DNA from: Isoetes taiwanensis
Taxonomy: Eukaryota > Streptophyta > Lycopodiopsida > Isoetales > Isoetaceae
Direction: 5' to 3'
NCBI GenBank assembly: GCA_021234155.1
Contig: JAJEKV010000028.1
Coordinates: forward strand, 12,044,134 to 12,108,133
Length of the DNA stretch: 64,000 nt
The position numbers and the translations under genes are program-made. Positions 1 to 49,227 of the stretch are shown here, one piece after another (the stretch's first letter is position 1; each line of letters opens with the position of its first letter). The notes beneath the pieces were generated by a model. That model saw only the letters and a program-made list of their open reading frames with translations. It did no database searches and was not told the origin of the DNA.

Positions 1-735
1 GGGTATTTTGAGATAAGAAGAGCTTTAAGATACTCAATACCTGATAGAGCATTTGATTGCACAACAGCAACTCGGGAGCCTCAGAAGGAACTGCAGAAGT
101 ATGAAATAAAACCCTAAAGGTCAATTTACAAAAAGAAATGTACTTGGATCACATCGTTGTTGACCAAACAGATATAATTGAATGACAAAAAGAACAATGA
201 AGCAAATACTACTGGCATGGTTGCTCATGTTCATCATCACAAGCCTTTGAATAAAATCACTCATAAGTCAGTACTCGGCATATTGGTAGAATAGAACTAT
301 CACACATAGAAAATTGCATAGAGGTATCTTACACACTCATTGGCACCAGCATCAAGCTACTGCCCTAGAATTAACATGGATACCAACAAAATCAAATGGT
401 TTCCTAATGGAACTAAAAAATATCAAATTTTTGTTGACTATCAAAGAGAAAATGCCAAATACTATATCCATCATGTAGAATGATATAATCAAACTTTAGA
501 ACCTAAACTTTGGCATCGATTACCTAAAAAAATCGATCAGCCAATCTAGCAACCGGTGCTCGTGCCAGGGCTTGCTCTCGATGATTTTATGCTGCTAATG
601 CCGCAAGGCATGGTTCCAAAAGTCCTTCTCTGGGTACATATTTTCTTTCTCTGAGTATCAACAGTCAGAAGGTGGAGACAAGAAATATCTTAATCATGGT
701 TGTCTGACGAGGGACATAGCTCTAAAGTTGATCGC
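1..735. other. AT-rich stretch without a recognisable gene
   Basis: I see no convincing coding exon, RNA gene or terminal repeat here. The right end runs into the LINE reverse-transcriptase remnant that becomes readable from about 740, so part of it may be upstream ORF2 sequence that has decayed beyond recognition. Confidence 0.4.
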
Positions 736-1672
736 GTCCGTATTGTATACATGGAAGATCTCAAGCATGAAAAGGCTCAAGCAACATCTCATAACCACTT
801 CTAGGCTTTTTTCACTAAGAAACATCTTCCTTTTCAGTCAGAAATACGAGATGCAGTTTTATCTAGGATTCCCCCTATCATCTCTGACGAGCAGTGCGTA
901 TCAATAGAGGTGGCTATAACAGCTCATGATTTAGGTTTGGCGATCGTTGGACTAAAAAGAGGCAAGTGTCCAGGTTTGGAAGGTTTGCCAATTGAGTTCT
1001 TTGAGAAGTATTGGAAATGGCTAGAGCCAGATGTGTATGATGCTTTCTGTGACTTTGCGTGGTCTACTACTTTGGATAGAATTCTAAACACAGGTGCCAT
1101 CTAACTCATCTCTAAGGTCAAGGATCCTCAGACTATTTTCAGACTGGCGACCGATCACCTTATTGTCATCTGTATATAAGATCTTTGCAAAGCAGGTGAA
1201 GAACATCTTGGACGAGTCCCAGACATTCTTTCAAAAAGATGATGAACAATGTTGCTACTGCTTACGATAAAATCTATTGGGCATGTAAGCAAAACCTTCC
1301 AATTGTGTACCTTAAGCTTGATTTTATGAAGGCTTACGACAGTGTTAGCTGGGAGTTCAAGCGTCGACGTATGCTAAGACTAGAATTTGGGATTCACATC
1401 AGACATTATGAAGTTGCATGTCTCTGCTCGGGTGATTGTTATGTTCTATGGTGAGCCGTCAGAGGTCTTCTCACTTGGTCGTGGTATTCGCCAGGGATGC
1501 CCTTTAGCATCATTGCTCTTCACAATTGTCGCAGAGGCTTTATCGCAGTTATTCATTATTGCAACCACAAAGGGACTTCTCCATGGGCTCACAATGGAGG
1601 ACGGCATACAAAAGATTTGCAATCAATATGCAGATGACACGTTTCCTACATCAAATGCCAACAAATAGGATC
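736..1672 (+). pseudogene. LINE (L1-type) ORF2 reverse-transcriptase remnant
   Basis: Pieces of a non-LTR retrotransposon reverse transcriptase can be read in order across several frames. They are an N-terminal stretch with GLPIEFFEKYW (about 980-1015), the palm stretch LDFMKAYDSVSW (about 1317-1352), the GIRQGCPLASLLFTI block (about 1483-1527) and the catalytic box QYADD (about 1624-1638). In L1-type elements the two Asp residues of YADD bind the metals for target-primed reverse transcription. At least three frame changes and several stops lie between these blocks, so it is dead. The reading ends soon after YADD, where a different LINE fragment in the same orientation begins, so this copy is truncated before its thumb and zinc-finger regions. 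Confidence 0.85.
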
Positions 1673-16200: not shown

Positions 16201-17160
16201 TAAAATTGTATGTTTTCTGTGCATAATGATTTTGTGAATGCGAAAAGGACAATGTGAAGCCAGTTACAGAGGATCATGTCACTCTGAAATTCTTGGTGCA
16301 AGCACAGTTTGCATTCTTCGTAAGCTGAACTAACATAAAAGATGGTCAATGCAACTGCCCCTTCCTTTGTTCTTTTATATGTCAGAGGATGAATTTTGCA
16401 ACCATGAAAGAGCCATATTCTATCACTCTTCAAAAGGTTGGCTTCGTTAAATAAGTTTCAAACTTTATTATCAAAATGGTGGTAGGTTTCTTTTATGCCT
16501 AATAACAAGCTTGACATAATTTGCTCTATCAACGCTTACTTGAAACGCGGAGCCCTCAGTGGAGCTGCCCATACCAAACTCGTCCATGTTGGTCTTCCCC
16601 ACCAAAACAGCTCCTGCATCTCGCAATCTGCTCACAGCAGTTGCATCATAAGGAGGCTGATAACCGTTCAGAATTTTCGAACCTCCAGTAGATGGCATAT
16701 CCATGGTGCACAAATTATCTTTGATGGAAATTGGCACTCCAGCTAGAGGTCCCAGCTTCTGGCCTTGAGCTAGATTCTTATCCACTTCTGCTGCAGCCTT
16801 CAGAGCAGATTCTTCTGCTATATGCAAAAAACTCTTAACTGATGGTTCGCATTTTTTAAGCCTAACCAAATACTCCTCCATCACATCCACAGCGGTTCTC
16901 TGACGCTGCAATATATCATCCCTAATCTTCTTAATTTCAGAATGCGGCCTCACCTTGCTTTCTGTGAATTGGGCGGTTCCTGATTGAGAAGCTTTTAAAG
17001 CTACTACTTTGGTGACTATAGCAGTTGATAAAGACAATGCAAATAGAAACCGCGATGCCGAGGATGGGGAACATTGTGGACCTAATAAACCCTGAGTACT
17101 ACCAAAAGATGGGCATGTTACCGGAGTAGGATGCCTGCCTGTGGTGGCGATGGTAGCCAT
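13264..17160 (-). CDS. GATA: Glutamyl-tRNA(Gln) amidotransferase subunit A, organellar (10 exons)
   Basis: Subunit A of the GatCAB complex, which amidates Glu-tRNA(Gln) to Gln-tRNA(Gln) in plastids and mitochondria and supplies ammonia from glutamine. Exons: 16540-17160, 15608-15919, 15361-15540, 15167-15261, 15020-15095, 14877-14954, 14066-14159, 13947-13996, 13400-13513, 13264-13335. All joins keep frame, with GT at the donors and AG at the acceptors, giving about 563 residues (Arabidopsis homologue about 540). The amidase-signature triad is visible: Lys147 (ISIKDNL), Ser222 (GGSSGGSAA) and Ser246 ([10 protein letters not shown]). The first 60-70 residues are Ser/Ala-rich and probably a transit peptide. 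The C terminus [18 protein letters not shown] is family-like. The donor of the third exon (GAG then GTGGAAAG) is weak and was chosen by alignment to INEV[13 protein letters not shown]. A MITE lies just upstream. No defect seen. Confidence 0.96.
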
Positions 17161-17251
17161 GGACCTGCTCCCACAAACCCAATCTTAAAGGGATGATATA
17201 AAACCCCTTGTAAAACCTTTGGTCATCCAGCGATAATTTGCCACATAAGCC

Positions 17252-43764: not shown

Positions 43765-44955
43765 CTATGAACACCCCTCATTCATAATCTGAAAATGTTT
43801 TTGGATTGCACCTAAACCTTGAAGTCTGGCATCGACAACAAAATAATCCACACTGCAAACCCCTTCACCATGTGGTGCACTGTCCAAATATCGCCACCCA
43901 TCGATAGAAGAACAGTAGGCAAAGACTAAGACCTGCGTTTTCCCATTGTTATCAACAATGCAAGATTGCACACACACAAGACCATTAGCAGCAGTGGCTT
44001 TTGTCAATGTCAAGTCATCATCAATATCAAAAGATGATAGCAGCAAAAAAAGATATGATTTATCTTCTTCATTGCAAAGCCATGTGGATAGTAAGTGTCT
44101 CTTCTCATTAATTCCAACCAACATAAGTCTGCCCTTGATTTGAATCAAGACATCCACTTTCCATTCCCCAAATTGATCTTCAGGTAATAAGAACTTCTTA
44201 TGTGACCAAGAATCAATATCAATGGAGTAGCTCCATATCTTGCCATCCTTTCCTAAGAAATAGATTGAGTTTCCAATAATGGGATGCGGTTGATTAGGTT
44301 CATTCAAATCATAACTAGGTCCAGGATATCCAGATGTACTTCTACTCCAACTCCCAGTGTGAGATTTATAAACTAGAAGTTGAAGTGTTGACGTAATAAG
44401 GATAACAATAAAGCTATTATCTAACAAATCAACATGGAAAGATAGGTTGCGCAAATTACAATCTGTGTCAGAGAGAGGGGGGCTAACCAAGCATTGAACT
44501 GAGGGGGATTTACACGGATCAAACAAGTATAATTTATCAGACATGATATCATAAGCACAGAGAAGACCATAAGAGCTATCCAGGTAGCTAATGAGATAAT
44601 CACCAGGCCATGGCTGCTGTGTCCAAGCCTTTTCTGGACTAATGCATGGGTCACACTTCTGACCTGGAAGAAGACCTGTGTTAAGGTACACACAAGCAGA
44701 TCGTACATGCTTTTTACAGTTGCAGGGGAGTAGAGCTTGGAAACCATCAAAAACGGGATAAGAAGGGCAGTCGCTATGATCATAAATATACATACAACCT
44801 ATGGTAGCCCTACGTCTCCAGCATTGCTTAGAATGAATAAAACGATACCAGTGCTTGGAGACAAGAGAAAATCGAGCCAGATCTCCGAAATCATCCAATC
44901 TTCGAAATACTTTCTCCGCAACCTCATCCGGGAGCTTGCAAAACAGAGTTTTCAT
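43765..44955 (-). CDS. F-box protein with kelch/propeller-like C-terminal region
   Basis: Intronless ORF of 396 residues. Residues about 5-50 (CKLPDEVAEKVFRRL, then FSLVSKHWYRFIHS) form an F-box, the segment that binds SKP1 in SCF ubiquitin ligases. The rest has spaced blocks such as GLLCAYD, LYLFDPCKSP, SIYFLGKDGKIWSYSID, DSWSHKKFLLPEDQFGEWKV and RLMLVGINEKRHLLSTW, with the spacing and aromatic pattern of F-box-associated kelch/beta-propeller substrate-binding domains. Length is normal for plant F-box proteins. The start is the first in-frame ATG and sits five residues before the F-box. No intact neighbour suggests its target. The frame has no defects. Confidence 0.92.
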   Translation of the reverse strand: MKTLFCKLPDEVAEKVFRRLDDFGDLARFSLVSKHWYRFIHSKQCWRRRATIGCMYIYDHSDCPSYPVFDGFQALLPCNCKKHVRSACVYLNTGLLPGQKCDPCISPEKAWTQQPWPGDYLISYLDSSYGLLCAYDIMSDKLYLFDPCKSPSVQCLVSPPLSDTDCNLRNLSFHVDLLDNSFIVILITSTLQLLVYKSHTGSWSRSTSGYPGPSYDLNEPNQPHPIIGNSIYFLGKDGKIWSYSIDIDSWSHKKFLLPEDQFGEWKVDVLIQIKGRLMLVGINEKRHLLSTWLCNEEDKSYLFLLLSSFDIDDDLTLTKATAANGLVCVQSCIVDNNGKTQVLVFAYCSSIDGWRYLDSAPHGEGVCSVDYFVVDARLQGLGAIQKHFQIMNEGCS

Positions 44956-45952
44956 CTTTCAGGAGCGTGGAGTTCATCGGTTTAGAAGCTTATTTTATGG
45001 ACTTTCTCAATCGGTGTAACTGGGTATGGTGCGTGGGGAGCCCTAGATAGAATTCCAATAACATAATGGCACGGTTGTACTTATATTCAATGGTCAGAAC
45101 ATGCAGAGCACATAGCAAGCCACGATTAAGTTCTGCAATTGTTGTTAGGGCATGGAATAACCTAAGATTTTGTAAGGTTTTGGGATGTATTCGTATGGCA
45201 AAATGTTATTTTGCTGATGTCAGTAAATGGGTTTTGAGTTTCCTAATGTGTTTGGAATTTTTTCTTGTTATAGCTCTATCTTTTCCTGGAAAGTAGGGTT
45301 TCTGCCATTTGTGTGCGTGAGGGCAGGGCGACGTGGCCTTGGCGGCCTTCTTCTGGCGAAGCTCATCGGACTGCTTGGCCATGGCAGCCTCCTTGTGGCA
45401 AAGTTATAGCTGACTGCATGCCTGGCCCGAGAAGATAGTGATGTAATTTAATTGCTTGGCTCCAAAGGATGATGCTGGCGGAGTTGTTCTAGTGGATTTG
45501 TTGTTGCATGCTTCTTGCATCTTCCAGCAATTTGCAGGGCGACGAAATAATGTTGTTTGTGGTTTTCTTTGCAAGAGGAGTTCATGGCAGGGCATGAAGA
45601 GTGTGTGCAGGATCACATAAGAAACCCCATCTTTTTTTATATTGGCAGGGTAAATCGATGCCCTCTGTGCCAAAACCTGTAACATGGAGTCGGATTTACA
45701 GGGATGGGTAAATCATTCCCAAAAATGCCTCGTGCTCTGCTGGTTTTGGTTTCACGATGGCTAGATAAATTGACGCCTTGTGTTCCACAAGGGGATTTTT
45801 GTTTCAAACTTATTTTGCATGTCTCTGAGCTATTCTGATCTAATTTGAAGCATCATTACTTTTTATGCCTCTGTTTTGCAGATTCCTCTGGTATGGAGCT
45901 AATGGCAGACACAGCTTCAGTTTTTGTTGTCTTATCTAGAATGGCAGGGCAT
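44956..45952. other. Gene-free interval upstream of the Rep-like locus
   Basis: It should include the F-box promoter. From about 45118 (CCTAAGATTTTGTAAGGTTT then TGTATTCGTATGG) it resembles 46545-46640 (ATAAGATTTTCTAAGGTTTT then TGTATTCGTAG), both followed by TGANGTCAGTANATG. This is an old duplicated block in the Rep-like locus. Confidence 0.5.
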
Positions 45953-46303
45953 TGGTACTGCCGTTTCTTGGCAGGGGGTTCAAATCCCCAATTATTTTGC
46001 TGAACCTGCAGTATATTGGCAGATAAATGCTGTGTGGATGTCTTTGTGAAACAGATTCATGATATGCTGCTGAACATTCATGTTGAACAGGAATGGAGTT
46101 CCTTTAATCTGTGTAGTTGCTGTTAAGCACTCAGTATGTACGTGTTTGACTTCAATGGAATACATTGTAGTGCACCTTAGGATGAGGTGGAAATTGGGGT
46201 TTGACCCCATCTTGACTTCTAAGGGACGGCCACATGTTGTGCATTGGGCATATGACATGGAATATTCTGATAATCAATGGTTGAGATTGAGCGATTATAG
46301 GAT
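45953..46303 (+). repeat. 3'-end-like repeat with hairpins, copy 1 (upstream of Rep)
   Basis: It starts GGTACTGCCGTTTCTTGGCAG and GGGGGTTCAAATCCCC, two small stem-loops in series. It ends with TTGGGGTTTGACCCCATCTT (46195-46214) and AGCGATTATAGGATT near 46290-46305. The blocks recur in the same order downstream of the Rep gene at 48955-49227. Confidence 0.6.
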
Positions 46304-46312
46304 TGAGCGATT

Positions 46313-46527
46313 GAATGGCCTGCTCTTGGCAAAGCTTTCGAGGTCGCCTTCATCCTTGCTGCGGTTGTAGCTGCATTTTGTGGTTGTGGTGTTGCTGCTG
46401 CAGTGGACTTGTTCTTTCGGCTATGGTATTCCGCATCCCAGGTAACATGCTGAAGAGGGCAGCTAGATGTAGAAAACAAACCTTGCCTCCTGAAGCTAAA
46501 TTCCCTTGTGTTGAGGATGCTTTCTCT
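46313..46527 (+). repeat. 215-bp direct repeat upstream of Rep, copy 1
   Basis: GAATGGCCTGCTCTTGGC to GATGCTTTCTCT. It is nearly identical (about 95 percent by eye) to 46854-47067. Both copies contain the frame MLKRAARCRKQTLPPEAKFP followed by CVEDAFS, so the duplicated sequence may include an N-terminal exon of the Rep protein. Confidence 0.9.
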
Positions 46528-46853
46528 TAAGTTCCCAAAATGTTGTTTGGGTGTGGTGTTACATAAGATTTTCTAAGGTTTTGCATGTATTCGTAGCCTA
46601 TTTTGTTATAAATCTGACGTCAGTATATGTGTTTTGTTGTTCCAGTGGTCGTTAGGTTTTTGTTTGAAAGTTGTAGTTTTTAGAAGGTCAGTGGTGGCGA
46701 TGGGTTCGCGTCCGCGTGGAGCGGATGGATTAGAGCAGAGGGAGTTCTGGCCACAGCTTAGGAGCTCGTCGGCATGTCGTGTTGCAGTATCAGGTAAGTC
46801 TGTTGTTTGTTTGTGGCGATGTCGTCTGGGAGTGGGGGTTTTTTATGTGGTGT

Positions 46854-47067
46854 GAATGGCCTGCCCTTGGCAAAGCTTTCGAGGTCGCCTTCATCCTTGC
46901 GTGGTTGTAGCTGCGTTTTGTGGTTGTGGTGTTGCTGGTGCAGTGGACTTTCTCTTTCGGCTGTGGTATTCTGCATCCCAGGTAACATGCTGAAGAGGGC
47001 AGCTAGATGTAGAAAACAAACCTTGCCTCCTGAAGCTAAATTCCCTTGTGTTGAGGATGCTTTCTCT
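46854..47067 (+). repeat. 215-bp direct repeat upstream of Rep, copy 2
   Basis: Second copy, starting 541 bp after the first. It ends at TTTCTCT, four bases before the apparent splice acceptor (ATAG) or frame change that opens the Rep frame. The 326 bp between the two copies is unique apart from the old block described for 45.1 kb. Confidence 0.9.
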
Positions 47068-47071
47068 ATAG

Positions 47072-48010
47072 GGGGATAGGGAGGGCACGTCCAAGGGTAG
47101 GGGTAGAGTAGAGGGTGAGGATGAGGGCAGCGGCCTGTTGGATGTGAGCCTTACTTTGGGTTATGCTGGGACTGATGTTCCCCTTGCCATGTTCCACAAA
47201 CTTGTGGATTTTCTCAAGACCCAGACTATTGCTGGGGCTGTAGCCCTTGAAAGGGGATCAGACCTCGACCATTTGCACTGCCAGGGGGTGCTGAGGAGCA
47301 CCTTGAAGACTCCTCGTGCCGTGAATGCTGCCATCAAGAGGTTTTTTGGCTGGGGATCTCAAAGGCCGACTGGGGTTCTTCTGATATGCAAGGCTCTTAA
47401 GAACACGAGGATGCATTGTTTTGAGGGGTTAGTGTGATATTGCTTGAAGGACCTTGGTAAAGTCCATTTCAAAGTTTGCTTGCACAATGTTTCTGAGAGG
47501 CAGATCGAGATGGGGAAGGATCTCTATCTGCTTCATGGTGCAGGTGACCTGAAGAGTGTCCTTGTGTTGGATAACAAAAACTTATTGCACAGGGCCCATC
47601 ACTTTGTTAAATACCATGGTAGGAAGCAGCTGTCTGCTTCCCTTGTCTATATTGTATGTCGGATGCTCAGGACTGGGAAATTCATTCTCTCTAGTCAACG
47701 GATCTTACCTACTAACTCTGCTTTTATTTCAGAGCATCGGGTGAAGGCAGCATGGAGAATAAATCTCAATCCCTCACAGGCCATGCCTAGTGACGTGCGA
47801 TGTGTGATTTTTAATATCCCTGCAGGTATGCAACCCGTGGAGCGAATAGGTAAGGCACGGAAGAGATACTATGATGATGTCCCCAGTCCTGGAGATGGGG
47901 ATGAGGGCTTCGTGGACATTGCTGAGGACGAATTCAGGCCTGCAATGGAAGGGACTTCCGAGCAACCCGATTACATCTCCTTGCTGTTAATTAATGGAAT
48001 GTTCCATTGA
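47072..48010 (+). pseudogene. Rep-type HUH endonuclease (putative single-Tyr rolling-circle transposase)
   Basis: The frame from 47072 opens with an Arg/Gly/Glu-rich stretch. It then has LLDVSLTLGY (Rep motif I position), DHLHCQG (47267-47287; motif II, two His of the HUH metal site plus QG) and, 50 residues later, YCLKD (from 47438; motif III, the nicking Tyr and Lys). A TGA at 47435-47437 sits immediately before that Tyr in the same frame. About 190 residues follow, including HNVSERQIEMGKDLYLLHGA, HRVKAAWRINLNPS and an acidic tail. HUH Reps nick DNA and form a 5' phosphotyrosine link. No helicase is seen, unlike Helitrons or viral Reps. The 5' end may be a splice site or a frameshift after 47067. 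Endogenous viral Rep is an alternative, but no capsid gene is seen. Confidence 0.7.
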
Positions 48011-48136
48011 GTTCTGCAATTTTTCTTTAAGAATGTTATTGCTTAGGAGTTTGTAACGCTTTCGAATGAATGGCATGTTCCATTGTCTCAGTTTTTTAAC
48101 ATGTTTGCTATGGTTGTATGTCTTCTTTTGTTGCAG

Positions 48137-48658
48137 CCTTGGAGGATTGACCTCGCATGCATGCAGGAGTATGCCTATGCCTTTATCTTCCGATCCGATG
48201 CTGAAATGGAGAATGGGCACCAAGAAGTGGCTGAATTTCCTGCACCTCCTGATAGGCCCCTGGAGCCTGCATTGCCTCAATCTGCTGCCTCTCAGCCCCC
48301 TTCTGTAGAAAGCCTGATTTCCAATGGTCTGCCACATCCTAGTATAGCATCTCCAGATGCAGAACATGCTCATGTGGCATCCGAGTTACTCACTAGCGTT
48401 GTCAATATAAACACACTTGCTGAAACTGTTGCAGCCTCTGTGCGTTTACGTCGGATGCAGTTAGGTCGTCTTTTCCATGAGCTAGAAGAGACAATTGGCA
48501 CTATGGAGTGGGACGAGGTTGCAGTGTCCACAAGGAAAAGGCAGGCCCTTAGGAGTCATATGAACTTGGCGCGGGCGCTTTTGCTGCGAGAACTCAGGCA
48601 TATTGACATGTACATCCTTAGGATTTTGCAATTTGCTTTTCATGTGTTCTATCTGTAA
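48137..48658 (+). pseudogene. Downstream exon, possibly the C terminus of the Rep-like gene
   Basis: After a good acceptor (TTTTGTTGCAG, ending at 48136) a frame of about 170 residues runs to TAA at 48656-48658. It opens PWRIDLACMQEYAYAF, has a Pro/Ser/Glu-rich linker (PAPPDRPLEPALPQ) and ends in an Arg-rich helix (VRLRRMQLGRLFHELEETIG, TRKRQALRSHMN). I do not recognise a domain. Its place in the same gene is inferred from adjacency and strand; the donor of the intervening intron is uncertain (candidates near 47986 and 48052). Confidence 0.45.
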
Positions 48659-48906
48659 CAAGCTCACAGGCGTAGGACATGCTTGCGAGGAGGCACGCGG
48701 AGGCACTAAATATTACTATGAACTGATGTGACCTGCTGTGTTGTTGAACTTTGAACACTTTCATGCTGCTGTTTTCTTCTTGTAGTTGCATTGCATAGTG
48801 TGCATGGAGCATGAGTTGTGCATTTCAAAATTTTAAAAATGTTTTACTGAATTGTTATTGCATATGCATTGGTGTGGCTGAGCATCTGCACGGGACTAGC
48901 CCCCTG

Positions 48907-48942
48907 CCATAATGGGGAGCCCTTTGGGGAGCCCCATTATGG
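48907..48942. repeat. Perfect 11-bp stem hairpin downstream of Rep
   Basis: CCATAATGGGG (48907-48917) and CCCCATTATGG (48932-48942) enclose a 14-base loop. It lies 250 bp past the last Rep-side stop codon. Rolling-circle transposons often carry a hairpin near the 3' terminus, so it is a candidate terminal signal. Confidence 0.85.
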
Positions 48943-48954
48943 TTGGCGAAGCAT

Positions 48955-49227
48955 CAGGGTACCGGCTTCGGTCGGTGGGGTTCAACTCCCCATGCTTCTG
49001 TTTGCTTGTTTGCTGCCGTGGGAAGCATGACAGAGGCTGCAAGGGGGAGCCACTTATTCATGTAACAGGTTGACCTGTTTTTCAGTTTGACCCCAACCTT
49101 TGGGTGATGTGGAAATGGGGATTTGACCCCATCTTAATTTGGGGTGGACGGTGGTGCTCATTGGCTTTTGGATATGCTCGGGAATATACCTTTTTCCAAT
49201 GGACAGGATATAGCGATTATAGGATTC
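48955..49227 (+). repeat. 3'-end-like repeat with hairpins, copy 2 (downstream of Rep)
   Basis: It starts GGTACCGGCTTCGGTCGGTG and GGGGTTCAACTCCCC and later has GGGGATTTGACCCCATCTTA (49116-49135), ending AGCGATTATAGGATT (about 49213-49227). Same block order and orientation as 45953-46303, at perhaps 65-70 percent identity. It is the candidate 3' end of the Rep element. Confidence 0.6.

Follow-up and report, generated by a model that had tools for sequence, protein, structure and literature searches.

Characterised HUH enzymes nick one DNA strand, stay bound to it through a tyrosine and transfer the strand. Helitrons have two tyrosines, a Pif1-type helicase and a 3′ subterminal hairpin. Replitron transposases, according to an abstract by Craig, reportedly have an upstream domain that was suggested to serve in oligomerisation. 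According to PMC10741241, Replitrons are 0.9-4 kb long, bear short direct repeats of 5-11 bp at their termini and have already been reported in lycophytes (there citing Craig 2023). Here, we describe what is very probably a decayed Replitron of the quillwort Isoetes taiwanensis, with two open reading frames (ORF1 and ORF2), found in a stretch of 64,000 nt that we call the window (GCA_021234155.1, contig JAJEKV010000028.1, 12,044,134-12,108,133, forward strand).

Helitrons resemble the quillwort element in being eukaryotic HUH transposons and in their 3′ subterminal hairpin, but the quillwort Rep has a single conserved Tyr and no helicase family was found with Pfam. The Reps of circular Rep-encoding single-stranded (CRESS) DNA viruses, such as circoviruses and nanoviruses, share its nuclease fold, as well as its H-x-Q and YxxK motif layout; unlike these viruses, the element shows no superfamily 3 (SF3) helicase family in Pfam scans of ORF1 and ORF2, and it is dispersed in the chromosomes with ends of its own. 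With Replitrons it has in common the Pfam HUH domain, the one Tyr, the lack of a detected helicase family, a length of about 2.7 kb and a non-seed plant host, whereas a separate conserved ORF2 and 3′ ends built from one or more 15-17 bp units may distinguish it from other Replitrons.

A decayed Replitron of a large lycophyte family

Family match, nuclease-domain fold, conserved residues, element limits and coding selection on ORF2 are demonstrated here. We hold it very likely that the locus, including the mechanism proposed below, is a decayed member of a large lycophyte Replitron family, with ORF1 encoding a Rep that has an H-x-Q pair and one Tyr in a YCxKD motif, and with ORF2 as a separate gene. 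The copy extends from 46527 to about 49225, its right limit being placed within a few bases (49219-49225), and its length of about 2.7 kb lies inside the Replitron range. Its main features are as follows.

46527..49225, + strand: whole decayed Replitron copy; homology with other copies ends there and the flanks differ
46987..48010, + strand: ORF1, a Rep-type HUH nuclease pseudogene with a frameshift, an internal TGA and a damaged tail
47272..47286, + strand: H-L-H-C-Q metal motif, the conserved pair being the second His and the Gln
47438..47452, + strand: YCLKD, the catalytic Tyr motif, from the alignment of copies
48138..48658, + strand: ORF2 region, from its presence in other loci and its codon-position rates

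The ORF1 nuclease

An earlier note, made from the letters of this stretch, had proposed a Rep-type HUH gene in the frame 47072-48010, either Replitron-like or novel. The frame does contain VSLTLGY, followed by DHLHCQG and then YCLKD, the distance from the second His to the Tyr being 54 residues. It begins just past a one-base insertion near 47068 that is absent from 15 of the 16 other aligned copies, the ORF1 start codon itself lying at 46987. A TGA at 47435-47437 interrupts ORF1 immediately 5′ of YCLKD, and its tail is unlike the tails of copies that keep an intact one; the motif order stands, but the frame is not a single open one.

The Rep signal is far above what chance would produce. The Pfam family Replitron_HUH (PF21859) matched the half of ORF1 before the TGA at 2.2e-6 and 28.5 bits, exactly on the curated cut-off; for the half downstream of the TGA the values are 3.3e-4 and 21.4 bits, under the cut-off. 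The same family was found far over the cut-off in all four intact ORF1s taken from other copies, one of which also showed Replitron_C (PF21860) with an E value of 0.055 and 14.3 bits, where the cut-off is 27. The relatives recovered by sequence are Replitron proteins; a novel class is not supported. The nuclease domain has the HUH fold of CRESS-DNA virus Reps, with circovirus Reps as the nearest structures. Foldseek against the PDB gave nothing at E <= 0.001, its top hit being papillomavirus E1 with 3.7e-3; a sequence search of solved structures gave nothing relevant, and plasmid records gave no match.

Both His residues and the Gln of H-L-H-C-Q are present in all 28 copies compared. Among 12 aligned proteins the second His never varies, nor does the Gln that follows two residues later, while the first His is replaced by Gln in 11 of 11 Riccia relatives; the metal pair of the family is therefore H-x-Q. 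In the YCLKD motif, the Tyr is kept in 26 and the Lys in 27 of the 28 copies, and the Tyr of YCxKD is the sole Tyr invariant in both protein alignments. Pfam scans at E <= 10 detected no helicase or capsid family in three window frames and seven intact ORF1 and ORF2 proteins, in agreement with the reading of a decayed, single-Tyr, helicase-free Rep. The median ratio of nonsynonymous to synonymous rates (dN/dS) of ORF1 is 0.133 (239 of 378 pairs; here, as for the ORF2 median of 0.131 given below, pairs whose dS was saturated or very small were left out).

Copies in the host genome

Searching the genome (1,658,258,908 bases in 1110 pieces) with the HUH region, we found that all 150 scored places, the best 150 of 2683 candidates, match at E <= 2.8e-34. 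We compared 20 close and seven more distant copies, together with nine stretches that hold neighbouring copies. Many copies carry stops or frameshifts. The aligned copies have shared ends between differing flanks. In the 150 top-scoring candidates, which are not a random sample, 11 pairs are no more than 50 kb apart, where uniform placement would give 0.67, and eight of the 11 are on the same strand. Two of five neighbouring pairs examined share flanks or most of the stretch, like duplicated segments, and three look like independent insertions. Because some neighbouring pairs look duplicated, we do not claim an insertion preference.

Element ends and target sites

The left limit of homology among copies is sharp, at TTA[AG]GTT, and the right end consists of one or more GGATAGAGCGATTATA units, beyond which the flanks differ from copy to copy. 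The terminal features of the window copy are listed here.

46527..46643, + strand: 5′ terminal and subterminal region, TTAAG..., with the TACATAAG motif common to lineages (23 aligned 5′ ends and a profile search)
49115..49132, + strand: inverted repeat ATGGGG...CCCCAT near the 3′ end
49170..49190, + strand: second, imperfect inverted repeat near the 3′ end, GGCATAT...ATATGCC in many copies
49205..49225, + strand: 3′ terminal unit GGATATAGCGATTATA, one unit here and two or more in several copies

L030, L034 and L035, which are 95-98% identical in aligned blocks, form a second lineage with TAATGTGTCC on the left and ACACCCAAAACGATAAT units on the right. In both lineages two inverted repeats occur within about 120 bp of the 3′ end. 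Covariation in the second repeat was not significant (155 of 220 cells paired, whereas shuffles averaged 147 and reached at most 161), and a joint alignment fold retained just five pairs of the first. As regards short direct terminal repeats, the base before the 5′ end is A in 15 of 18 copies, giving ATTA, and the 3′ unit again contains GATTA; a shared TAAT occurs in the second lineage. With 2-8 bp as the Replitron yardstick, target-site duplications are likely, if weakly shown: a test on 13 copies gave a permutation P of 0.0044, or 0.046 without L021, and the best candidates measure 8 bp (L016) and 7 bp (L013). An 18-bp repeat at L021 was not counted as a clean duplication because its flank is a satellite array.

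A conserved second gene

Downstream of the ORF1 stop, just after an acceptor-like AG, lies a separate frame with its own ATG. ORF2 is present in 24 of 27 other loci at 35-88% identity and in six of nine further loci; its start is damaged in the window, where the clean frame runs from an ATG at 48206. ORF2 is under coding selection: differences at codon positions 1, 2 and 3 are 0.085, 0.042 and 0.267 among 18 copies of the window's lineage, compared with 0.205, 0.265 and 0.221 at the same three positions of the leader, and its median dN/dS is 0.131 (180 of 210 pairs). Between lineages the median is 0.274 at saturated dS (25 pairs).

Three ORF2 proteins had no Pfam match at cut-off, with one sub-threshold match at 0.15, and the protein-database search brought up no homologue. 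With hhalign no counterpart of ORF2 appeared in the Riccia Replitron protein (probability 0.1), and the reading of ORF2 as a domain of that protein was rejected. The predicted structure of the window ORF2 alone comprises a loose N-terminus and two long helices (predicted local distance difference test 74.7, predicted template modelling score 0.41). One locus, L029, has ORF2 twice in opposite orientations, at 240-644 (+) and 940-1359 (-).

Two splice-like sites precede ORF1.

46794..46799, + strand: splice-donor-like AG/GTAAGT in the leader, with AGGTNAGT in 17 of 17 aligned copies
46982..46986, + strand: CAG/GTAAC adjoining the ORF1 start codon, a possible acceptor or donor, with CAGGTAA in 15 of 17 aligned copies

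The form AG/GTNAGT is kept in all 17 aligned leaders. Most simply read, the leader donor might be joined to either of two acceptors, one leading to ORF1 and the other to ORF2, and the ORF2 message would probably arise by splicing over ORF1 from the leader that both genes share.

Surroundings of the element

Another copy lies upstream.

45126..46312, + strand: second Replitron copy, internally deleted, in the same orientation as the main copy, from 5′ and 3′ terminal profiles

It matches the 5′ profile at 2.1e-18 and the 3′ profile at 9.4e-31. The exact gap between the two copies is filled by 215 bp (46313-46527) that are 96% identical to the element's own 46853-47067, comprising leader and ORF1 start. 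Such head-to-tail arrangements, of two Replitrons that each have their own ends and lie within 25-215 bp of each other, occur at L015:6993-7856 and at window 45126-49225, in two of 28 sequences searched; the others showed no additional pairs of ends. Sequences resembling a tRNA T-arm, of the GGGGTTCAA-CCCC type, occur at about 45970-45995 and 48965-49000 and are possibly derived from a short interspersed nuclear element. No tRNA gene was called by ARAGORN, and Rfam and tRNA scans of the window gave no matches. Two open frames on the minus strand resemble, by eye, an amidotransferase subunit A exon (16471-17184) and an F-box protein (43765-44958).

Alternative explanations

The earlier note had read the downstream sequence as a long extra C-terminal domain of the Rep with introns. 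An intron would then remove the ORF1 stop and make one protein of the two frames, for which the pyrimidine tract and AG just 5′ of ORF2 provide an acceptor-like sequence. The ORF1 tail, however, is shared between lineages (DYTMAVN in the window's, DYTMAIG in L032, GDCTMAVG in L034) and is followed by TGA in all 11 copies displayed, a set selected for its intact tails. The acceptor phase, by our reading of the alignment, varies between lineages (0, 1, 1, 2), and within the ORF1 tail, the part considered for donors, a fitting GT occurs in only one of four lineages. The shared tail and stop and the varying phase disfavour a single spliced protein, which we regard as unlikely; the frame 48047-48658 belongs instead to a separate conserved ORF2.

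Far less probable still are two explanations of the locus as a whole. Host takeover of some copies, or of ORF2 alone, would account for low dN/dS at high dS, as in the dN of 0.046 against a dS of 0.416 for ORF1 of the window copy and the 11 copies paired with it; yet an old family kept active by transposition yields the same ratio, stops or frameshifts occur in many copies and the flanks resemble those of dispersed insertions, leaving this very improbable. Least credible of all is an endogenised CRESS-DNA virus fragment: the proximity of the nuclease domain to circovirus Reps and 137 viral-library matches at E <= 0.001 would fit it, but the scanned proteins show no SF3 helicase family, the copies are dispersed with shared ends and different flanks, and the sequence relatives are Replitron proteins.

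Proposed mechanism and implications

For the decayed Replitron, we infer a copy-and-paste mechanism by analogy with characterised HUH enzymes. At the 3′ terminal units, beside the subterminal inverted repeats, the Rep would nick one strand and would stay covalently attached to the DNA end through its Tyr; the copied strand would then be pasted at a new site with the assistance of a host helicase and polymerase. ORF2 would be a small helical accessory protein and most likely a partner of the Rep, acting for instance in oligomerisation or in the binding of DNA. This separate helical protein could fill the oligomerisation role attributed to the upstream Replitron domain. More tentatively, at somewhat less than an even chance, lycophyte Replitrons may be two-gene elements in which the conserved leader donor is joined either to the Rep or, over it, to ORF2, a helical partner of a family not yet described, on which the helicase-free Rep depends for transposition.

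A conserved second gene in a Replitron is provisionally new, as judged from a literature search that stopped short of the founding Replitron description. Few eukaryotic transposons have been studied as little as Replitrons. A Rep without a helicase should depend on assistance, and the conserved second protein would be a first candidate partner. With many copies, sharp ends and recognisable lineages, the quillwort genome is suited to defining the ends of these elements and the transposition of a single-Tyr Rep in a eukaryote.
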